This document shows, piece after piece, positions 3,280 through 61,147 of a stretch of DNA of 64,000 bases. This DNA comes from Methanoplanus sp. FWC-SCC4 (GTDB lineage: Archaea > Halobacteriota > Methanomicrobia > Methanomicrobiales > Methanomicrobiaceae): NCBI RefSeq assembly GCF_032878975.1, contig NZ_CP043875.1:1046370-1110369 (forward strand). Reading direction: 5' to 3'. A model generated the notes under the pieces. That model was not told the origin of the DNA and did no database searches. It saw only the letters and a list, made by a program, of their open reading frames with translations. Made by a program: the position numbers and the translations under genes. How positions within the stretch are numbered: the first letter of the stretch is position 1; every line of letters begins with the position of its first letter.

Positions 3280-5184
3280 TTATATTCCAAGCTTTTTACG
3301 GTTCTTTTCGATGTGTGAAAGAATATTTTCCGCCGCTTTAACTGCATCAGTTTCAACGTCCAAAAGACCGCCTGTTACATTTACACAATCTTCGGTTAGA
3401 AGTTTTAGAAGATTTGGTGCGCCTGTTACAAACGGCACAGGATTTACATAAGTATAAAGTCCATAGGCAAGAGCAAAAATTGCATCAATTGTTGCTTTTT
3501 GTTCCATATATTCAGGTGCGGCAGCTGCAACCGGAAGATCAGATATCGGGGCTCCTCCAAGGGCATCAGAAACTGCTTTTATTAAATCCGCACATCTTCC
3601 GGTATCAGTACATGTACCAAAACTTAACACAGGCGGTACTGATAATGCTGTGCAGATTTCTTTTAATCCATCTCCGGCAAGGTCACGTGCTTTTGGAGAG
3701 CAAAGCCCTGCAACCTGCATTCCCGCATTCCCGCAGCCCATTGAAAGAACAAGCAGATCTCTTTTTATAAGCTCTTTTGCAACTGCCACCGAATGAATAT
3801 CCTGACCGTTGTCCCTGAGCGAAGTGCATGAAACAAGTCCCACAACACCACGGATTTTTCCTGCAACAATTGCATCAAGTAAAGGCTGAAGCGACCCGCC
3901 CAGTGCATCAAGAATGCTCTCAGGCGAAAATCCGACAATTGCTTCACTAACAGGGAGTCCTGTGATCGGCTTTACTGAGGCTTTTCTTGTTTTAAAATTG
4001 GAAATTCCTAATTTTATGAGTTCTTCCGCCTGCTCTTCTGCTTTTTCCGGAATATAATTTATTCTGTCAGTAATTCCTTCAAAGGCAACAAGATCGGATA
4101 CAGGAACCAGTCTGAATTTGAATTTTTCGGCATATATGGGATCTACCGGAAGAGAACAGTTCATATCGGCAACAAAAACATCCACGGCACCGGTAGCCAA
4201 TACGGCCTCCTGCATAATCCAGTTGCCTGTATAGCCGTATAAGACATCATCCATATTCCAGCGCTGAATCATCTCCTGTCCGGTTTCTATGTTGGCAATA
4301 ATTCTAAGACCCTTTGCACCCGCTTCTTTAGCCTTATCCTGCCATTCCTTTTTCCTCGCAGCCTCCACAAGTGCAAACCCAAGGAACGGCTCATGCCCGT
4401 TTGGAAGTATGTTGACATATTCAGAATCAAGCACCCCAAGATCAACCCTCATCGAATGAGGCCTTGGAATGTTGAACATTATATCCTGAAGATACTCACA
4501 GACAATCTGACTCTGGTATGCCATTGCTATTGAGATTCTCATTGCCTTTAAGGCAAGACTGGTATAATACCCGTCAACATTTGTAAGACATGAACCGGTT
4601 GCATTCATTAATTCCGCATGAATACCGCCAGGGAGAATTCCAAGTTTTTTCCACTGCAAAAGCCTGTCTTTTGGAGCAAGCCGTTTTACGATCTCACTGG
4701 GCTCTGTTGCAGGAAGATTAAAATCCTCTGTTATCATTTTGCAGAGTCTTATTGCAACGTCATTGTCATCGCCCATTGAATCAATGCCAAGCCTCTCTGC
4801 AAAATCTCTTAATTTTTCAGGCTCTGCAATTTTAAAAGGTGTTTTGCCATGTGCAGTTTCCCTTAATGTTGAAACGGTTTTATCAGCATGGTAATGATAT
4901 GTTGCAGCACCCATTATGTTTCTTAGAAGCATTGTCCTCATAGCGAGACCATCTGCTGTAATACCGCAGACTCCTCTTTTATCTATAGAAGAGTCTGCAC
5001 GACACGGGCCGTTTGAACAGAAATCGCATCTGACTCCATCCATACAAAAAGAGCATCTTTTATCCGGATCATCCCCAAAACCCTGGGCGGCATAGCGATC
5101 CCAGACATTTGTAATGCCATCTTCTTTTAATTTTCTGTAAACGGTTTTTACAGAATCATGATATGAAATCCTGTTATCTTCCAT
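3280..5184 (-). CDS. CooS-family Ni,Fe CODH homologue with altered C-cluster site
   Basis: A full-length 634-residue CooS fold. Cys44-x2-Cys47 looks like the two-cysteine D-cluster seen in Desulfovibrio CODH; Cys53, Cys56, Cys61 and Cys73 fit the B-cluster. C-cluster ligands His264, Cys343, Cys453, Cys484 and Cys525 and the acid-base Lys563 are in place, but the position of the Fe ligand Cys295 (CODH-II numbering) is Glu300, in IETGQE instead of CCTGNE. Carboxydothermus CooS-V, which also lacks one canonical ligand cysteine, carries an Fe/S/O hybrid cluster, does not oxidise CO and slowly turns over hydroxylamine. No cooC or cooF lies nearby. Start supported by GGGGGGAT eight bases upstream. 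Confidence 0.9.
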   Translation of the reverse strand: MEDNRISYHDSVKTVYRKLKEDGITNVWDRYAAQGFGDDPDKRCSFCMDGVRCDFCSNGPCRADSSIDKRGVCGITADGLAMRTMLLRNIMGAATYHYHADKTVSTLRETAHGKTPFKIAEPEKLRDFAERLGIDSMGDDNDVAIRLCKMITEDFNLPATEPSEIVKRLAPKDRLLQWKKLGILPGGIHAELMNATGSCLTNVDGYYTSLALKAMRISIAMAYQSQIVCEYLQDIMFNIPRPHSMRVDLGVLDSEYVNILPNGHEPFLGFALVEAARKKEWQDKAKEAGAKGLRIIANIETGQEMIQRWNMDDVLYGYTGNWIMQEAVLATGAVDVFVADMNCSLPVDPIYAEKFKFRLVPVSDLVAFEGITDRINYIPEKAEEQAEELIKLGISNFKTRKASVKPITGLPVSEAIVGFSPESILDALGGSLQPLLDAIVAGKIRGVVGLVSCTSLRDNGQDIHSVAVAKELIKRDLLVLSMGCGNAGMQVAGLCSPKARDLAGDGLKEICTALSVPPVLSFGTCTDTGRCADLIKAVSDALGGAPISDLPVAAAAPEYMEQKATIDAIFALAYGLYTYVNPVPFVTGAPNLLKLLTEDCVNVTGGLLDVETDAVKAAENILSHIEKNRKKLGI

Positions 5185-5264: not shown

Positions 5265-5298
5265 GGTAGTATTACCTTTAGGATAATAAAATTATCCT
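5265..5298. promoter_or_regulatory. paired dyads upstream of the cooS-like gene
   Basis: The 281-base region before the cooS-like start holds GGTA-GTAT-TACC (5265-5276) and, three bases on, the perfect palindrome AGGATAAT-AAA-ATTATCCT (5280-5298). They lie 80-115 bases before the ATG, a position suited to operators. No regulator is assigned. Confidence 0.4.
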
Positions 5299-5464: not shown

Positions 5465-5719
5465 TTATTCGTTAATAAACTTTTGAAGTTCACTGAGCAT
5501 GTAATCCTGAATTTCAATTGCATTTTCTTTTGTGCATCTGAAAGCCAGAAGGTTTCTGACATCTCCGTCCATATTTGCAAACTTTAAAGCTCTTGGGCGG
5601 TCGACAATCTCTGTATCAAATTTTTCAGATATCTCAATAATTAATTTTTTAGGAACACCCGGGGGGATGATGACATCATAATATTTTGTCTCTGTATTTT
5701 CTTCCATTAGAGTTTTCAC
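5465..5719 (-). CDS. 84-aa methanogen protein, possibly DUF2102
   Basis: A small acidic protein containing YYDVIIPPGVPKKLIIEISEKF and a mixed alpha/beta C-terminal half. It starts five bases after marker protein 14 ends, on the same strand, so the two are surely co-transcribed. I tentatively connect it with DUF2102, a small methanogen family, but that identification is from memory of size and context only. No catalytic motif is visible; a partner or assembly role beside marker 14 is an inference. Confidence 0.75.
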   Translation of the reverse strand: MKTLMEENTETKYYDVIIPPGVPKKLIIEISEKFDTEIVDRPRALKFANMDGDVRNLLAFRCTKENAIEIQDYMLSELQKFINE

Positions 5720-5724
5720 CTGAT

Positions 5725-7215
5725 TTATTTTCCAATTTTAATACGTCTGTTCATTATACACGGACCGTTTCTCACGCCACCGATTGGATCTTTTGGTTTA
5801 CCCATGGAATTCATACATCTTCCCATCAGGGCAGCACCACGTGCAAGTCCGTCATCAACAAACAGCACATGCTTGTATGGATCATCATAAATTCCCCTTT
5901 CTGTGATGCCCTCCATGATAATCTCAGGTTTGCGTCCGGATATTGCCGCACGGCCTGTGAATCCCAGAGATGAATTCGGCGGTACAAGTTTGTTCTCAAT
6001 TGCAACATCGATCAGTCTTAGTGCCATTCTGGCACAGACATGATCTATGACCTCATTAAGAGTTCCCGTGCCGTATTTGTTATATATTTCTGCTCCAATT
6101 GCTTTTAAATTGTCTGCACCATCAAAGTTAACTCCGCAGTCACATCCTATCATTGCAATTCCCGACTGAATTGCAAGATCCGCACAAACAGGAACACGAC
6201 CAAAACGATCACGATCCGGCGGGACAATTCTTATATCAATAAGTTCATGAATCTGATCTTCATATTCTTTTGATACTTTTGTCTTCTTTCTGGAAAGATT
6301 GCTTTTGATACTTTTATCGCCAAAGAGATCAAGGGCAGTGCCTGTTTTGTCCTTTACCTGACCTGTACCTCTGACAAGTGCATCCGGAATCGCACCTGCA
6401 AGTCCGCAGAAGTTTCCAATTGTTTTTGCAAACGGCCATTCACAGTCATGCCCAACATCACTTGTAATACGGCCGTCAAGAGTTGTTCCGAAATCTATTG
6501 AAATACAGGGGTTTCTAAAATCAACTTCTGTCCATTTTGCACCCTCTTTAATGCCGGCCATAGCAAGTTCTCCTTCCATCTCATTTGCAACCATCTCGAC
6601 ACCGGATGATCCGATAGGAGGCGAAACTCCTGCAACAGTGCCACAGAATGTAAGCCTGTCTGCAAAACTGAATTCTCTAAGCTTTGGAGGAAGATTGTCT
6701 ATACCCATCGGCGGAGTCATCTTCTTTGGAGGCACTCCGGCTGCAAGACATCCGTTTGCAAGGGCAATTACAAAATCACCGACCTGATCAGGAGAGTCCA
6801 TTGCAGCAACAACACCTGTGCTTCTGACTACAAAATCAAGATCGTCTATTATTGAAAGATTTGCTTCTTTGTGACATTTGATTAAAGTGTCTTTTACAAG
6901 CTCTGTTACGGATTCTCTTGTAATAGATGTTCCCACAAGAGTTTCTCCAAAAATCTCCTCACCGGGCTTTGGAGGGCGAACATCACGACTCATACTGACA
7001 GTTTTGTTTATGATATAAGTCCGTCCTGTTTCAAGGTTAGTACCGGTCAGAATGCATTTGGTGGTTGTGTTTCCCATCTCAACAGAAGCTACTATGAAAT
7101 AGGGTTTATTCTTATATTCAGGAACAAGCATCCCTGCACCCTGCCCCATCACAGGAGGCGGAGGGCTTTCAACGATTTGAGGAAGTTTCTTCCTGAAGGT
7201 GAAAAAAGCACACAT
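5725..7215 (-). CDS. methanogenesis marker protein 14 (DUF2114)
   Basis: A 496-residue protein of the family found only in methanogens and relatives. It has an ASKHA-type phosphate loop SVEMGNTTTKCIL (about residues 47-59), a second strand ISIDFGTTLDGRITSD and a third loop VDDGLARGAALMG near the C-terminus, so an ATP-binding activase or kinase-like fold is expected. Its reaction is unproven. It heads a minus-strand set with the 84-aa protein and the cooS-like gene. The exact start is uncertain because a proline-rich stretch precedes the conserved core. Confidence 0.85.
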   Translation of the reverse strand: MCAFFTFRKKLPQIVESPPPPVMGQGAGMLVPEYKNKPYFIVASVEMGNTTTKCILTGTNLETGRTYIINKTVSMSRDVRPPKPGEEIFGETLVGTSITRESVTELVKDTLIKCHKEANLSIIDDLDFVVRSTGVVAAMDSPDQVGDFVIALANGCLAAGVPPKKMTPPMGIDNLPPKLREFSFADRLTFCGTVAGVSPPIGSSGVEMVANEMEGELAMAGIKEGAKWTEVDFRNPCISIDFGTTLDGRITSDVGHDCEWPFAKTIGNFCGLAGAIPDALVRGTGQVKDKTGTALDLFGDKSIKSNLSRKKTKVSKEYEDQIHELIDIRIVPPDRDRFGRVPVCADLAIQSGIAMIGCDCGVNFDGADNLKAIGAEIYNKYGTGTLNEVIDHVCARMALRLIDVAIENKLVPPNSSLGFTGRAAISGRKPEIIMEGITERGIYDDPYKHVLFVDDGLARGAALMGRCMNSMGKPKDPIGGVRNGPCIMNRRIKIGK

Positions 7216-57856: not shown

Positions 57857-58873
57857 TTATCCCCTTTTTGCCTTTTTTTCAGCAAGTCTTTCAATAGGAC
57901 CTAAATCGACATCGTCACTTAAAACAAGATTTCCGGAATTAACAGCACTTGTCAAAAATCCCTTCCCTTCCTCAGTCCTGACAACAATGGTTGTATATCC
58001 TTCAGGACTTCCGATTGCACCAGCTGAGATATCAGAATCAACCGCCGTTAAATCTGTGCACGACAGACAGCCCTTTCTTATGCAGCCTTCAAGATCTTTA
58101 AGGGAAATATCATTCTTTGTTCCGTCAGTTAAAGTTACCTCAAGCCTGCCTTTAACATCCAGTCTTTCAATCTCCCAGGCCTCTATTCCAAACTCATTTT
58201 TGAGTTTTCCTTCAACAAGACTTTCATAATCAAAAGTCTCTGTACAGAATAGACCAAATATAAGCCTGATTGATTTTCCAAAGGGCTTTAAGAGATCATT
58301 GTCGCTCTCTTTCATAAGCCTCAAAGCAGAAACTGCACAGGGAGTTCCGATAACAGCTATATTTGCATATTTTTTCTTGAAAACAGCTTCCTTTAATGCA
58401 AAAAGAGTAGGTATCCACCAGTTGTAGCGGCTTCCCGCACTATAAATCATAGCCTCTTTTGATGTTATTACAACTGATTTTGGTTTATGATTCCACTTGT
58501 CCTCGGAAACAGTTACAACAGCATCAATAAATCCTTTATCAAGTGCATTAGACAAAATGGCAGTAACCGCTCCTCCGCTTTGTTTACCTGATACTTCATA
58601 TGCGGATTTTGCAGCTTTTATTTCAAGGAAATCACCCATCATACTTCCTTTAATATTGGCAGAATCAGTTCTCGGACAAACTGAATAACATGCACCACAG
58701 GGCACATTATCATTCAAATCCTTACAATACCCGGTATTTACAGGATGTGACTTATCATTGTCCAAAAATACTATTGCATCTGCAGGACAGACTGCAACAC
58801 ATGCACCACATCCTGAACAATTATCCCTGTCCCAGACCTCTTTTTTTAATTTCTCAAAATTAATTCCTGACAT
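57857..58873 (-). CDS. F420-hydrogenase-beta-like subunit of glutamate synthase operon
   Basis: A 338-residue FrhB-family protein. The N-terminus carries two [4Fe-4S] motifs, CSGCGACVAVCPADAI and CGACYSVCPRT, and the rest fits FrhB with GKQSGGAVTAILSNALDKG and AVIGTPCAVSALRLM. The family binds FAD and coenzyme F420. It is the last gene of the split glutamate synthase operon, nine bases after the GXGXG subunit, so it probably brings electrons from F420H2 in place of the usual NADPH or ferredoxin subunit. Confidence 0.88.
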   Translation of the reverse strand: MSGINFEKLKKEVWDRDNCSGCGACVAVCPADAIVFLDNDKSHPVNTGYCKDLNDNVPCGACYSVCPRTDSANIKGSMMGDFLEIKAAKSAYEVSGKQSGGAVTAILSNALDKGFIDAVVTVSEDKWNHKPKSVVITSKEAMIYSAGSRYNWWIPTLFALKEAVFKKKYANIAVIGTPCAVSALRLMKESDNDLLKPFGKSIRLIFGLFCTETFDYESLVEGKLKNEFGIEAWEIERLDVKGRLEVTLTDGTKNDISLKDLEGCIRKGCLSCTDLTAVDSDISAGAIGSPEGYTTIVVRTEEGKGFLTSAVNSGNLVLSDDVDLGPIERLAEKKAKRG

Positions 58874-58882
58874 AATCCAAAA

Positions 58883-59629
58883 TCACTCCCAGCAGTATTT
58901 GTTTGCAAAAGGCCTTGCACTTGCAGGAACAATCTTTGTAAATCCTGATTTTAGAATTTCATCAGAATCAAAACCAAAGTAATCAGCAAATTTTTCGATA
59001 TAAATTCTGATTGTTTTTAAATCATCCATATCTGCCTGCTCCTTCTTCGCACCAATGCCCAACAAATTTTCATCCACATCCCCCCTGACAAAGATCATTC
59101 CACCATGAATTCCGCTTCCAATTCCTCTTTCGTTAACAGCAAAATCCTGATTCATACCCAGCACTATCAAAATACCACCGGCCATATATTCACCAAGAAA
59201 TGCTTTTGCCTGACCTCCGACAACCAGAACTGGCCTTTTTTCGTGGTAAGCTTTCATGTGAATACCACCGCGGTATCCTATATCGTCACGGACATAAACC
59301 TCTCCGCCCCTCATGCTGTGAGCAGTGGCATCGCCGGAACTTCCATGAATTACCAAAACACCTGCATCCATGGTATTCCCGGGCGCATGATCACAGTTAC
59401 CGTAAACTGTAACATGAGGACCGCTCATGAACATTGCAATATCCCCTCCGGGGACACCTTTAACTTTTATCTCGACATCATCGCCGCGAAGGCCATTACC
59501 GATAAATCTCTGGCCGAGAACATTTTCAATAATTATTTCCTTTGCACCATCATTCACAGCCTCACGTATTTTTTTGTTTAGAGGTGTGTAATGCATATCT
59601 TTGGCATCAATTGTAATTGTATCAGGCAT
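58883..59629 (-). CDS. glutamate synthase GXGXG-domain subunit
   Basis: A 248-residue right-handed beta-helix, equal to the C-terminal domain of bacterial GltB. Glycine periodicity is obvious in NTMDAGVLVIHGSSGD, RGGEVYVRDDIGYRGG and GIHGGMIFVRGDVDE. In bacterial enzymes this part is structural and holds the ammonia tunnel geometry. It lies six bases after the FMN subunit. Confidence 0.92.
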   Translation of the reverse strand: MPDTITIDAKDMHYTPLNKKIREAVNDGAKEIIIENVLGQRFIGNGLRGDDVEIKVKGVPGGDIAMFMSGPHVTVYGNCDHAPGNTMDAGVLVIHGSSGDATAHSMRGGEVYVRDDIGYRGGIHMKAYHEKRPVLVVGGQAKAFLGEYMAGGILIVLGMNQDFAVNERGIGSGIHGGMIFVRGDVDENLLGIGAKKEQADMDDLKTIRIYIEKFADYFGFDSDEILKSGFTKIVPASARPFANKYCWE

Positions 59630-59635
59630 TGTGTA

Positions 59636-61147
59636 TCAGGCCCCTATCATTTTTACATCGAGTACTTCCATTATCCCCTCATCGAGAAGGTATCCACGGA
59701 GCCTGTCACGATTCCCGCGAAGACTCTCAATTGAATTGATTCCGGCAGCTCCCATAAGTTCGGCAAGTTCAAGAGTCCAGCCGTTTATCAGATTTTCAAC
59801 ATTTTGTGCAGCCTCATCTGTATTAATCCGGCTGACAAGTTCAGGACGCTGGGTTGCAATTCCCCACGGACAAAGACCACGGTAACATGAACCACAAACC
59901 CTGCAGCCCATTGCAATAAGTGCTGCAGTACCTATGTAGACTGCATCCGCACCAAGGGCAATCGCCTTTGTTACATCAGCACTATCTCTCAGGCCGCCGC
60001 TTGCAATAATCGAGACCTCATTACGAATACCCTGCTCACGAAGCTTATCATCAACTGCTGCAATAGCTGCTTCAACAGGAATACCCACATGATCACGGAA
60101 AACACGGGGTGCGGCTCCTGTTCCACCCCTAAAGCCGTCAATAACAACAGCATCAGCAGAAGACTTTGCAATTCCTGCCGCAATAGCCGCAACATTATGA
60201 ACAGCCGCAATCTTTACAAAGACCGGTTTTTTCCACTCTGTTGCTTCCTTTAAACTCCTGACAAGCTGGGCAAGATCCTCAATACTGTATATATCATGAT
60301 GAGGTGCAGGACTGATAGCATCACTATGAAGCGGTATCATCCTTGTCTTTGAAACATCCTCGGCAACCTTTTCACCCGGCAGGTGTCCACCAATTCCGGG
60401 TTTTGCGCCCTGTCCAATCTTTATTTCTATTGCAGCCCCGCGTTCGAGATAGTTGATGTCAACTCCAAAACGACCGGATGCAATTTGAACTATCATATTA
60501 TTCTGGTATGGATAGAGATCCTTGTGAAGACCTCCTTCTCCCGTACCCATGAAAGTTCCAACCTTATTAACCGCTTTAGCCATAGCAAGCTGTGCATTCA
60601 GGGAAATTGCACCATAACTCATGTGACCAATCATTACAGGGGTTTCAAGCTTCAGATTTGGTGCAATCTTTGTTTTTAATTCATAGTCCCCTTCTTTCAC
60701 AGTGTTAATTTCAATTTTACGGGGCTTTTTGCCAATGTACGTCCTGAGTTCCATCGGTTCCCTTAAAGGATCAATGCTTGGATTAGTAACCTGACATGCA
60801 TCAAGAACAAGTCTGTCAAAGATTACAGGGTAATCCTTTGCATTGCCCATTCCGGAAAGAATAATTCTTCCGGAATTTGCCTGGTTGTATATTGCTTCCC
60901 TTGCCTCTCTTGTCCATAAAGGATGAGATCTGTAATCATTGGGTTTTTCTTCCAGGGTTATGGCATCACGGGGACACATTGCAATACATCTGTGGCATGC
61001 TGTGCACTTACGAAAATCAGGAACTATCTTCTGCCCTTCACGTCTGAAAACTCCATAAGAACAATTTTCAATACATCTTTCACAGAGCATGCAAAGATCC
61101 TGATCAATTTTTATCCTGTATTTTACAGGTGTGCTTCCGATTGTCAT
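59636..61147 (-). CDS. gltB: glutamate synthase FMN-barrel subunit with N-terminal ferredoxin domain
   Basis: A 503-residue protein. Residues 10-65 contain two [4Fe-4S] motifs (CMLCERCIENCSYG, CTACHRCIAMCPRD), absent from the bacterial large subunit. The barrel follows with MIGHMSYGAISLNAQLAMA, GTGEGGLHKDLYP and GRFGVDINYLE, then VIDGFRGGTGAAPRVF, and the [3Fe-4S] motif around GSCYRGLCPWGIATQ. It combines 2-oxoglutarate and ammonia to glutamate. The ferredoxin part probably receives electrons from the FrhB-like subunit. Confidence 0.94.
   Translation of the reverse strand: MTIGSTPVKYRIKIDQDLCMLCERCIENCSYGVFRREGQKIVPDFRKCTACHRCIAMCPRDAITLEEKPNDYRSHPLWTREAREAIYNQANSGRIILSGMGNAKDYPVIFDRLVLDACQVTNPSIDPLREPMELRTYIGKKPRKIEINTVKEGDYELKTKIAPNLKLETPVMIGHMSYGAISLNAQLAMAKAVNKVGTFMGTGEGGLHKDLYPYQNNMIVQIASGRFGVDINYLERGAAIEIKIGQGAKPGIGGHLPGEKVAEDVSKTRMIPLHSDAISPAPHHDIYSIEDLAQLVRSLKEATEWKKPVFVKIAAVHNVAAIAAGIAKSSADAVVIDGFRGGTGAAPRVFRDHVGIPVEAAIAAVDDKLREQGIRNEVSIIASGGLRDSADVTKAIALGADAVYIGTAALIAMGCRVCGSCYRGLCPWGIATQRPELVSRINTDEAAQNVENLINGWTLELAELMGAAGINSIESLRGNRDRLRGYLLDEGIMEVLDVKMIGA

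Follow-up and report, generated by a model that had tools for sequence, protein, structure and literature searches.

A CooS-V-type member of the carbon monoxide dehydrogenase family in Methanoplanus sp. FWC-SCC4 and the gene partners that its relatives share with HCP

A stretch of 64,000 nucleotides from the genome of Methanoplanus sp. FWC-SCC4 (hereafter, the window) was found to hold a gene of the prismane–carbon monoxide dehydrogenase (CODH) family, a single intact open reading frame with an ATG start. Judged by its sequence, the gene falls within the CooS-V group, an established one also described as structural group D-1, and its product is very probably a hybrid-cluster protein and not a CODH. 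The fuller reading, in which the protein is a CooS-V/D-1 hybrid-cluster enzyme with a stress role resembling that of the hybrid cluster protein (HCP), is given a probability of roughly 0.65. Two observations are new here: the operon partners of D-1 relatives are common to HCP, and D-1 is often the sole CODH-type protein of its genome.

Assignment to the CooS-V/D-1 group

The NCBIfam model TIGR01702 matches the window protein with 733.5 bits (cut-off 478), so that its name there would be 'anaerobic carbon-monoxide dehydrogenase catalytic subunit', much as a preliminary description of this DNA had expected. The HCP family model TIGR01703 gives 24.9 bits, under its cut-off of 360.8, and the profile of CdhA, a distant homologue from the archaeal ACDS complex, gives 42.5 bits against a cut-off of 781. 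The highest-ranking match in the PDB is CooS-V of Carboxydothermus hydrogenoformans (PDB code: 7b7q; E 1.2e-200, 51% identity), with an alignment that is free of gaps around every ligand; the second-ranked match is a true CODH (E 1.4e-123). An AlphaFold (AF2) model built from an alignment of 40 relatives (mean pLDDT 84) was used in a fold search, where the two CooS-V structures (7b7q and 7b9a) took ranks 1 and 2 with a TM-score of 0.95, compared with at most 0.92 for true CODHs. In a tree composed of CooS-V, two CODHs of solved structure and canonical CooS proteins from this order, with the other clade D groups (D-2 to D-4) left out, the window protein lies on the CooS-V side of a branch with 100/100 support, apart from canonical CooS. 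Within that tree it belongs to a dense group of archaeal and bacterial proteins of about 70% identity, for which CooS-V forms a long outer branch. The proposal of the preliminary description that the protein is of CooS-V type and not a CODH is borne out by these comparisons, as is its observation of a Glu where CODH-II has Cys295.

The positions of the cluster and active-site residues are given in Table 1. The region of the first C-cluster cysteine reads IETGQE in the window protein, IESGQE in CooS-V and CCTGNE in true CODHs. A set of 109 relatives from archaea and bacteria was aligned, and all ligand and D-1 signature positions of the window protein are invariant among them. Glu300 is present in 109 of 109, with Ile299 nearly invariant beside it, and the canonical CooS paralogue of the same genome has Cys at this site. 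Tyr96 is likewise shared with CooS-V and with every one of the 109 relatives, and the canonical paralogue has His there; Glu561 and Lys563 are invariant, with Ser in the paralogue at 561. The D-cluster motif, C44-X2-C47-X5-C53, is of type III (C-X2-C-X5-C). The residue list of the preliminary description, comprising Glu300 in place of Cys295, His264, Cys343, Cys453, Cys484, Cys525 and Lys563, proved correct throughout.

Two trivial accounts of the missing cysteine were rejected. The preliminary description had asked for a substitute near residue 300, and because there is no other Cys between residues 229 and 343, no nearby Cys could replace Cys295. A sequencing error at position 300 is set aside by the invariance of Glu across orthologues. 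As the Glu and all other ligands are kept in 109 archaeal and bacterial relatives, the loss of the Cys is not a matter of chance.

Table 1. Positions of the gene, its cluster and active-site residues, and an upstream repeat in the window
Feature	Position	Strand	Basis or remark
CooS-V/D-1-type prismane–CODH-family gene, 634 amino acids	3280..5184	-	Open reading frame; PDB match 7b7q; TIGR01702; AF2 model
Glu561-Gln-Lys563: predicted extra hybrid-cluster Glu (Glu556 of CooS-V, Glu494 of HCP) and CODH acid-base Lys	3496..3504	-	109 relatives
Cys525, putative cluster ligand (persulfide-bearing Cys521 of CooS-V)	3610..3612	-	Alignment, 109 relatives; role from PMC9311411
Cys484, putative cluster ligand (Cys480 of CooS-V)	3733..3735	-	Alignment, 109 relatives
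Cys453, putative cluster ligand (Cys449 of CooS-V)	3826..3828	-	Alignment, 109 relatives
Cys343, putative cluster ligand (Cys338 of CooS-V), with conserved Asn342 just before it	4156..4158	-	Alignment, 109 relatives
IETGQE motif, residues 299–304, with Glu300 where CODH-II has its Fe-ligating Cys295	4273..4290	-	Alignments
His264, putative cluster ligand (His259 of CooS-V)	4393..4395	-	Alignment, 109 relatives
Tyr96, where CODH has the acid-base His93	4897..4899	-	Alignment
B-cluster Cys53, Cys56, Cys61 and Cys73	4966..5028	-	Invariant in 109 relatives
Cys44-X2-Cys47, type III subunit-bridging D-cluster motif	5044..5055	-	Alignment; type per PMC6344411
Perfect inverted repeat AGGATAAT-N3-ATTATCCT, 8-bp arms	5280..5298	.	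About 95–114 bp upstream of the start codon

The residues correspond to those by which group D-1 was defined by Inoue et al. in 2019 (PMC6344411): the first C-cluster Cys is exchanged for Glu and the remaining ligands stay, the acid-base His is exchanged for Tyr and the Lys stays, the D-cluster is of type III, and the Lys is preceded at a distance of two residues by a Glu that corresponds to Glu494 of HCP. All are found in the window protein (E300; H264, C343, C453, C484 and C525; Y96; K563; C44-X2-C47-X5-C53; E561). It departs from canonical CooS in having Glu300 for Cys295 and Tyr96 for His93, and in having no adjacent CooC, an adjacency that is common in canonical CooS but not strictly defining. 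CooS-V carries an Fe/S/O hybrid cluster with no Ni and neither oxidizes CO nor reduces CO2 (Jeoung et al. 2022, PMC9311411), and that paper cites Ni deficiency and an inability to oxidize CO for CODH-II carrying C295A or C295E. In view of CooS-V and of the Ni-deficient C295E variant, it is well founded by homology that the window protein is not a CODH and probably holds no nickel; the suggestion of another substrate and of independence from nickel in the preliminary description gains support from the same likeness.

In comparison to CooS-V (PDB codes: 7B7Q and 7B9A), a D-1 protein, the window protein shares the scaffold, all hybrid-cluster ligands including the equivalents of Glu295 and Glu556, the Tyr in place of His93 and the type III D-cluster; the two are only 51% identical, and the cluster and activity are measured properties of CooS-V and predicted ones of the window protein. 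The hybrid-cluster residues present in the window protein are, for D-1 proteins, reported to be identical to those of HCP (PMC6344411); HCP differs in that the window protein has a CODH-like N-terminal domain with a D-cluster and that a separate HCP is encoded in the same genome. The canonical CooS of this genome has the CODH fold, the B cluster, five of the six C-cluster ligands and the Lys in common with the window protein, but is only 36% identical to it and has no HCP-type partners beside it.

At least 559 relatives were confirmed in species genomes. The best 80 of these, with about 70% identity and mostly from metagenome-assembled genomes (MAGs), have archaeal hosts in Methanosarcinaceae, Methanofastidiosa, ANME-1, Archaeoglobus, Bathyarchaeota, Thermoplasmata and Asgard archaea, and bacterial hosts in WOR-3, Chloroflexota, Actinomycetota and deltaproteobacteria. 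A search of plasmids yielded CooS proteins of just 29–30% identity. D-1 in Methanosarcina acetivorans was already discussed by Inoue et al. (PMC6344411), and the sequence cluster that holds CooS-V includes archaeal members (Jeoung et al., PMC9311411). This kind of protein, archaeal members included, is thus already published, and its novelty is smaller than the preliminary description implied.

D-1 genes in genomes free of other CODHs

A D-1 gene is present in 46 of 199 genomes of the order Methanomicrobiales (fragments counted), together with canonical CooS in 19 and with CdhA in 6. The D-1 gene shows INDEPENDENCE from CODH in 25 of the 46, which encode neither canonical CooS nor CdhA; 17 of these D-1-only genomes are at least 95% complete, four of them being single contigs (G015, G033, G040 and G096). 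D-1 genes are therefore independent of any CODH, and the 25 genomes contradict the literature, where genes of this type are said to occur solely alongside another CODH. The TIGR01702 annotation accordingly overstates CO metabolism, as in these 25 genomes the sole 'CODH' gene very probably encodes none. HCP accompanies D-1 in 33 of the 46 genomes and in 8 of 50 sampled D-1 genomes elsewhere, a mixed pattern.

The nickel insertion gene CooC was not found within 1.5 kb of D-1 at any of 28 loci of the order, compared with 13 of 21 loci for canonical CooS. In four D-1-only genomes (G022, G046, G052 and G068) no CooC homologue was found at E 1e-8. The same search returned CooC matches of 49–100% identity in genomes with canonical CooS; weaker matches in other D-1-only genomes (26–39%) may be other P-loop proteins. 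As none of the 28 D-1 loci has CooC, and as D-1 occurs in CODH-free genomes, the genome context agrees with a non-CODH function.

The window genome is complete (2.31 Mb) and has three prismane-family genes, encoding D-1, canonical CooS and HCP. The absence of CooC from the neighbourhood, as stated in the preliminary description, holds for the 64 kb window, where no CooC-like gene was found, but not for the genome: canonical CooS (G000:C1:1341952-1343784; locus including CooC, 1341079-1343784) lies 0.29 Mb from the D-1 gene with CooC 7 bp downstream, and retains both the acid-base His and the CCTGNE motif. The genome encodes neither CdhA nor CdhC. Its bacterial-type CooS with CooC is, as a separate observation, a lone CO dehydrogenase in a methanogen without ACDS.

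Gene partners shared with HCP

Downstream of the D-1 gene, several genera encode a small cupin of about 110 amino acids, often with a 4-bp overlap, and next F2, a protein of about 90 amino acids that has a CxxCGG motif and matches no Pfam family. The same cupin–F2 pair lies directly after HCP in other genomes of the order. Neighbouring genes were called by codon usage, as calling by longest open reading frame hid small downstream genes in GC-rich genomes. With cupin counts over the order being lower bounds, at least 31 of 110 HCP genes have a cupin on their own strand no more than 1 kb downstream, compared with, among the cupins listed, 0 of 77 genes for canonical CooS (Fisher p 1e-8); within 5 kb, one was found for at least 22 of 46 D-1 genes and at least 1 of 77 canonical CooS genes. 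At D-1 loci of other phyla the commonest neighbours are N1 (a 4Fe-4S protein of about 280 amino acids), cupins, an Rrf2 regulator and a zinc ribbon protein; N1, cupins and the zinc ribbon also occur beside HCP genes.

Partner families (cupin, F2, N1 or N23) were picked for recurrence near D-1 or cupin, and were counted within 1.5 kb on the same strand. In the order, one is present at 16 of 28 D-1, 7 of 21 HCP and 0 of 21 canonical CooS loci; since the choice of families makes the D-1 enrichment partly one of construction, a fairer test is given by the counts for HCP and for canonical CooS. The corresponding counts outside the order are 36 of 75 for D-1 and, in a small sample, 6 of 10 for HCP. 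Many of the genomes are MAGs with short flanks, and the canonical CooS controls were drawn from Methanomicrobiales only. At the named loci, 16 of 149 adjacent genes encode cupins versus 7 of 573 others (p = 6e-11), and N1 makes up 19 of 284 genes within two places versus 4 of 438 farther away (p 3e-5), p-values that are optimistic given the way the families were chosen and the common descent of loci and genomes.

Stress from NO and nitrite induces HCP, which lies in operons with the ferredoxin-like FrdX in deltaproteobacteria and clostridia (PMC1274295). In Desulfovibrio desulfuricans NO strongly induces hcp (Ddes_1829) along with the adjacent cupin gene, Ddes_1828, which ranks among the most responsive genes (PMC5701242). 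By description, N1 may be FrdX and the cupin may belong to the Ddes_1828-type family. No report of a cupin link for CooS-V-type genes was found in the literature searched. As a separate matter, an HCP–cupin(–F2) gene order with a divergent HxlR gene is seen in Methanomicrobiales (L117, L119, L120 and L128), and no mention of it was found in the literature searched.

Proposed role and alternatives

The analysis establishes the family membership of the window protein, its ligand set, its predicted fold, the gene neighbours common to D-1 and HCP and the independence from any CODH; the cluster type, the lack of Ni, the reaction and the substrate are inferred. The protein would form a homodimer that retains the scaffold of CODH along with its B and D Fe-S clusters, with a nickel-free 4Fe-3S-nO hybrid cluster replacing the Ni-Fe C-cluster. 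Glu300 and Glu561 would be among its ligands, and Cys525 would carry a persulfide in the oxidized cluster, as in CooS-V. No interconversion of CO and CO2 is expected. Low-potential electrons would enter through the D and B clusters, and the reduced, open cluster could bind a small N-O (or similarly oxidized) molecule, reduce it and rearrange to a closed, oxidized state. This would amount to an HCP-like reductive detoxification alongside the small cupin, FrdX-like 4Fe-4S and CxxCGG proteins encoded beside relatives. The partners common to D-1 and HCP, together with the NO-induced cupin–hcp pair, point to the job of HCP, and on balance we lean slightly towards an HCP-like role in nitrosative or redox stress.

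Several observations weigh against that role, besides the effects of family choice and common descent noted above. CooS-V reduces hydroxylamine very slowly (kcat 0.13 per s), its NO reductase activity does not exceed background, and HCP has potentials some 300 mV higher, from which the authors of that study infer a different physiological role for CooS-V (PMC9311411). The window D-1 gene stands alone with no HCP-type partner adjoining it, and the cupin–F2 pair of its genome lies at 1.85 Mb, 0.8 Mb away. HxlR, the usual regulator gene beside HCP in the order, is near only 3 of 108 D-1 loci. Finally, genetics in M. acetivorans, as cited in PMC6344411, suggests that a D-1 protein takes part in CO oxidation.

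That last hint would suit a true CODH of low activity or auxiliary function, or a sensor of CO or redox state that serves such an enzyme, Ni being bound even though the Cys is missing. For clade D, a survey from 2026 saw no clear pattern of neighbouring genes and proposed a role auxiliary to active CODHs (PMC13056359); the CODH scaffold, the TIGR01702 match, Lys563 and five of six ligands are retained, and the window genome does have CooC and canonical CooS. We nevertheless consider this improbable, given that Cys295 and His93 are both substituted in 109 of 109 relatives, that CooS-V has neither Ni nor CO activity, that CooC is missing within 1.5 kb at all 28 D-1 loci of the order and that, in the 25 genomes with neither CdhA nor canonical CooS (four of them with no CooC homologue found at E 1e-8), there is no CODH to assist. 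The HCP-shared partners and the D-1-only genomes provide a testable alternative to the auxiliary role. Drift of a vestigial CODH after loss of the nickel ligand might fit a lone gene with no conserved neighbour in the window, but is hardly credible for a protein about 70% identical to those of Asgard archaea, WOR-3, Chloroflexota and Actinomycetota, with the checked cluster and active-site positions invariant and no internal stop among the matches listed for the order; a degenerate pseudogene was likewise rejected on conservation.

A hybrid-cluster reductase for a substrate other than a nitrogen oxide (for example, one working at low potential on oxidized sulfur, a peroxide or an oxyanion), or an electron-buffering redox switch, is a less likely option that still carries some weight, and would be in keeping with D-1 hosts being mainly sediment anaerobes. 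The HCP-shared partners and the NO-induced pair of D. desulfuricans speak against it, although weakly, as the substrate of HCP is itself debated. A broader reading, to which we give a little less than even odds, is that D-1/CooS-V constitutes a second, independently evolved hybrid-cluster line that uses the accessory module of HCP (cupin, FrdX-like 4Fe-4S protein, CxxCGG protein and zinc ribbon) in methanogens and other anaerobes without any CODH. A large number of genes that bear a CO dehydrogenase annotation would then belong to a nitrosative or redox-stress system.

Further features were observed in the window and its genome. A gene for a DUF2114 protein (5725-7215, minus strand) lies upstream of the D-1 gene and runs in its direction, and an 84 amino acid gene with no assigned family (5465-5719) is located between the two. 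The inverted repeat in Table 1 was dropped as a shared operator: it is the sole perfect copy in the genome, with a chance of about 7% in shuffled upstream DNA, and was not seen upstream of D-1 orthologues. Two open reading frames of 338 and 503 amino acids (57857-61147, minus strand) have weak similarity to N1 and are probably unrelated ferredoxin-domain proteins. The cupin and F2 (CxxCGG) genes at G000:C1 ~1.8466-1.8492 Mb (L112 3615-6182) are followed by two tandem genes for membrane proteins of one family (258 and 263 amino acids), and the same kind of membrane protein is encoded beside cupin–F2 pairs in other genera too. The HCP gene of the window genome has a divergent HxlR regulator gene beside it, and AGTATC/GATACT boxes, a likely operator, are repeated between HCP and the divergent HxlR gene (L002, upstream of 1492).
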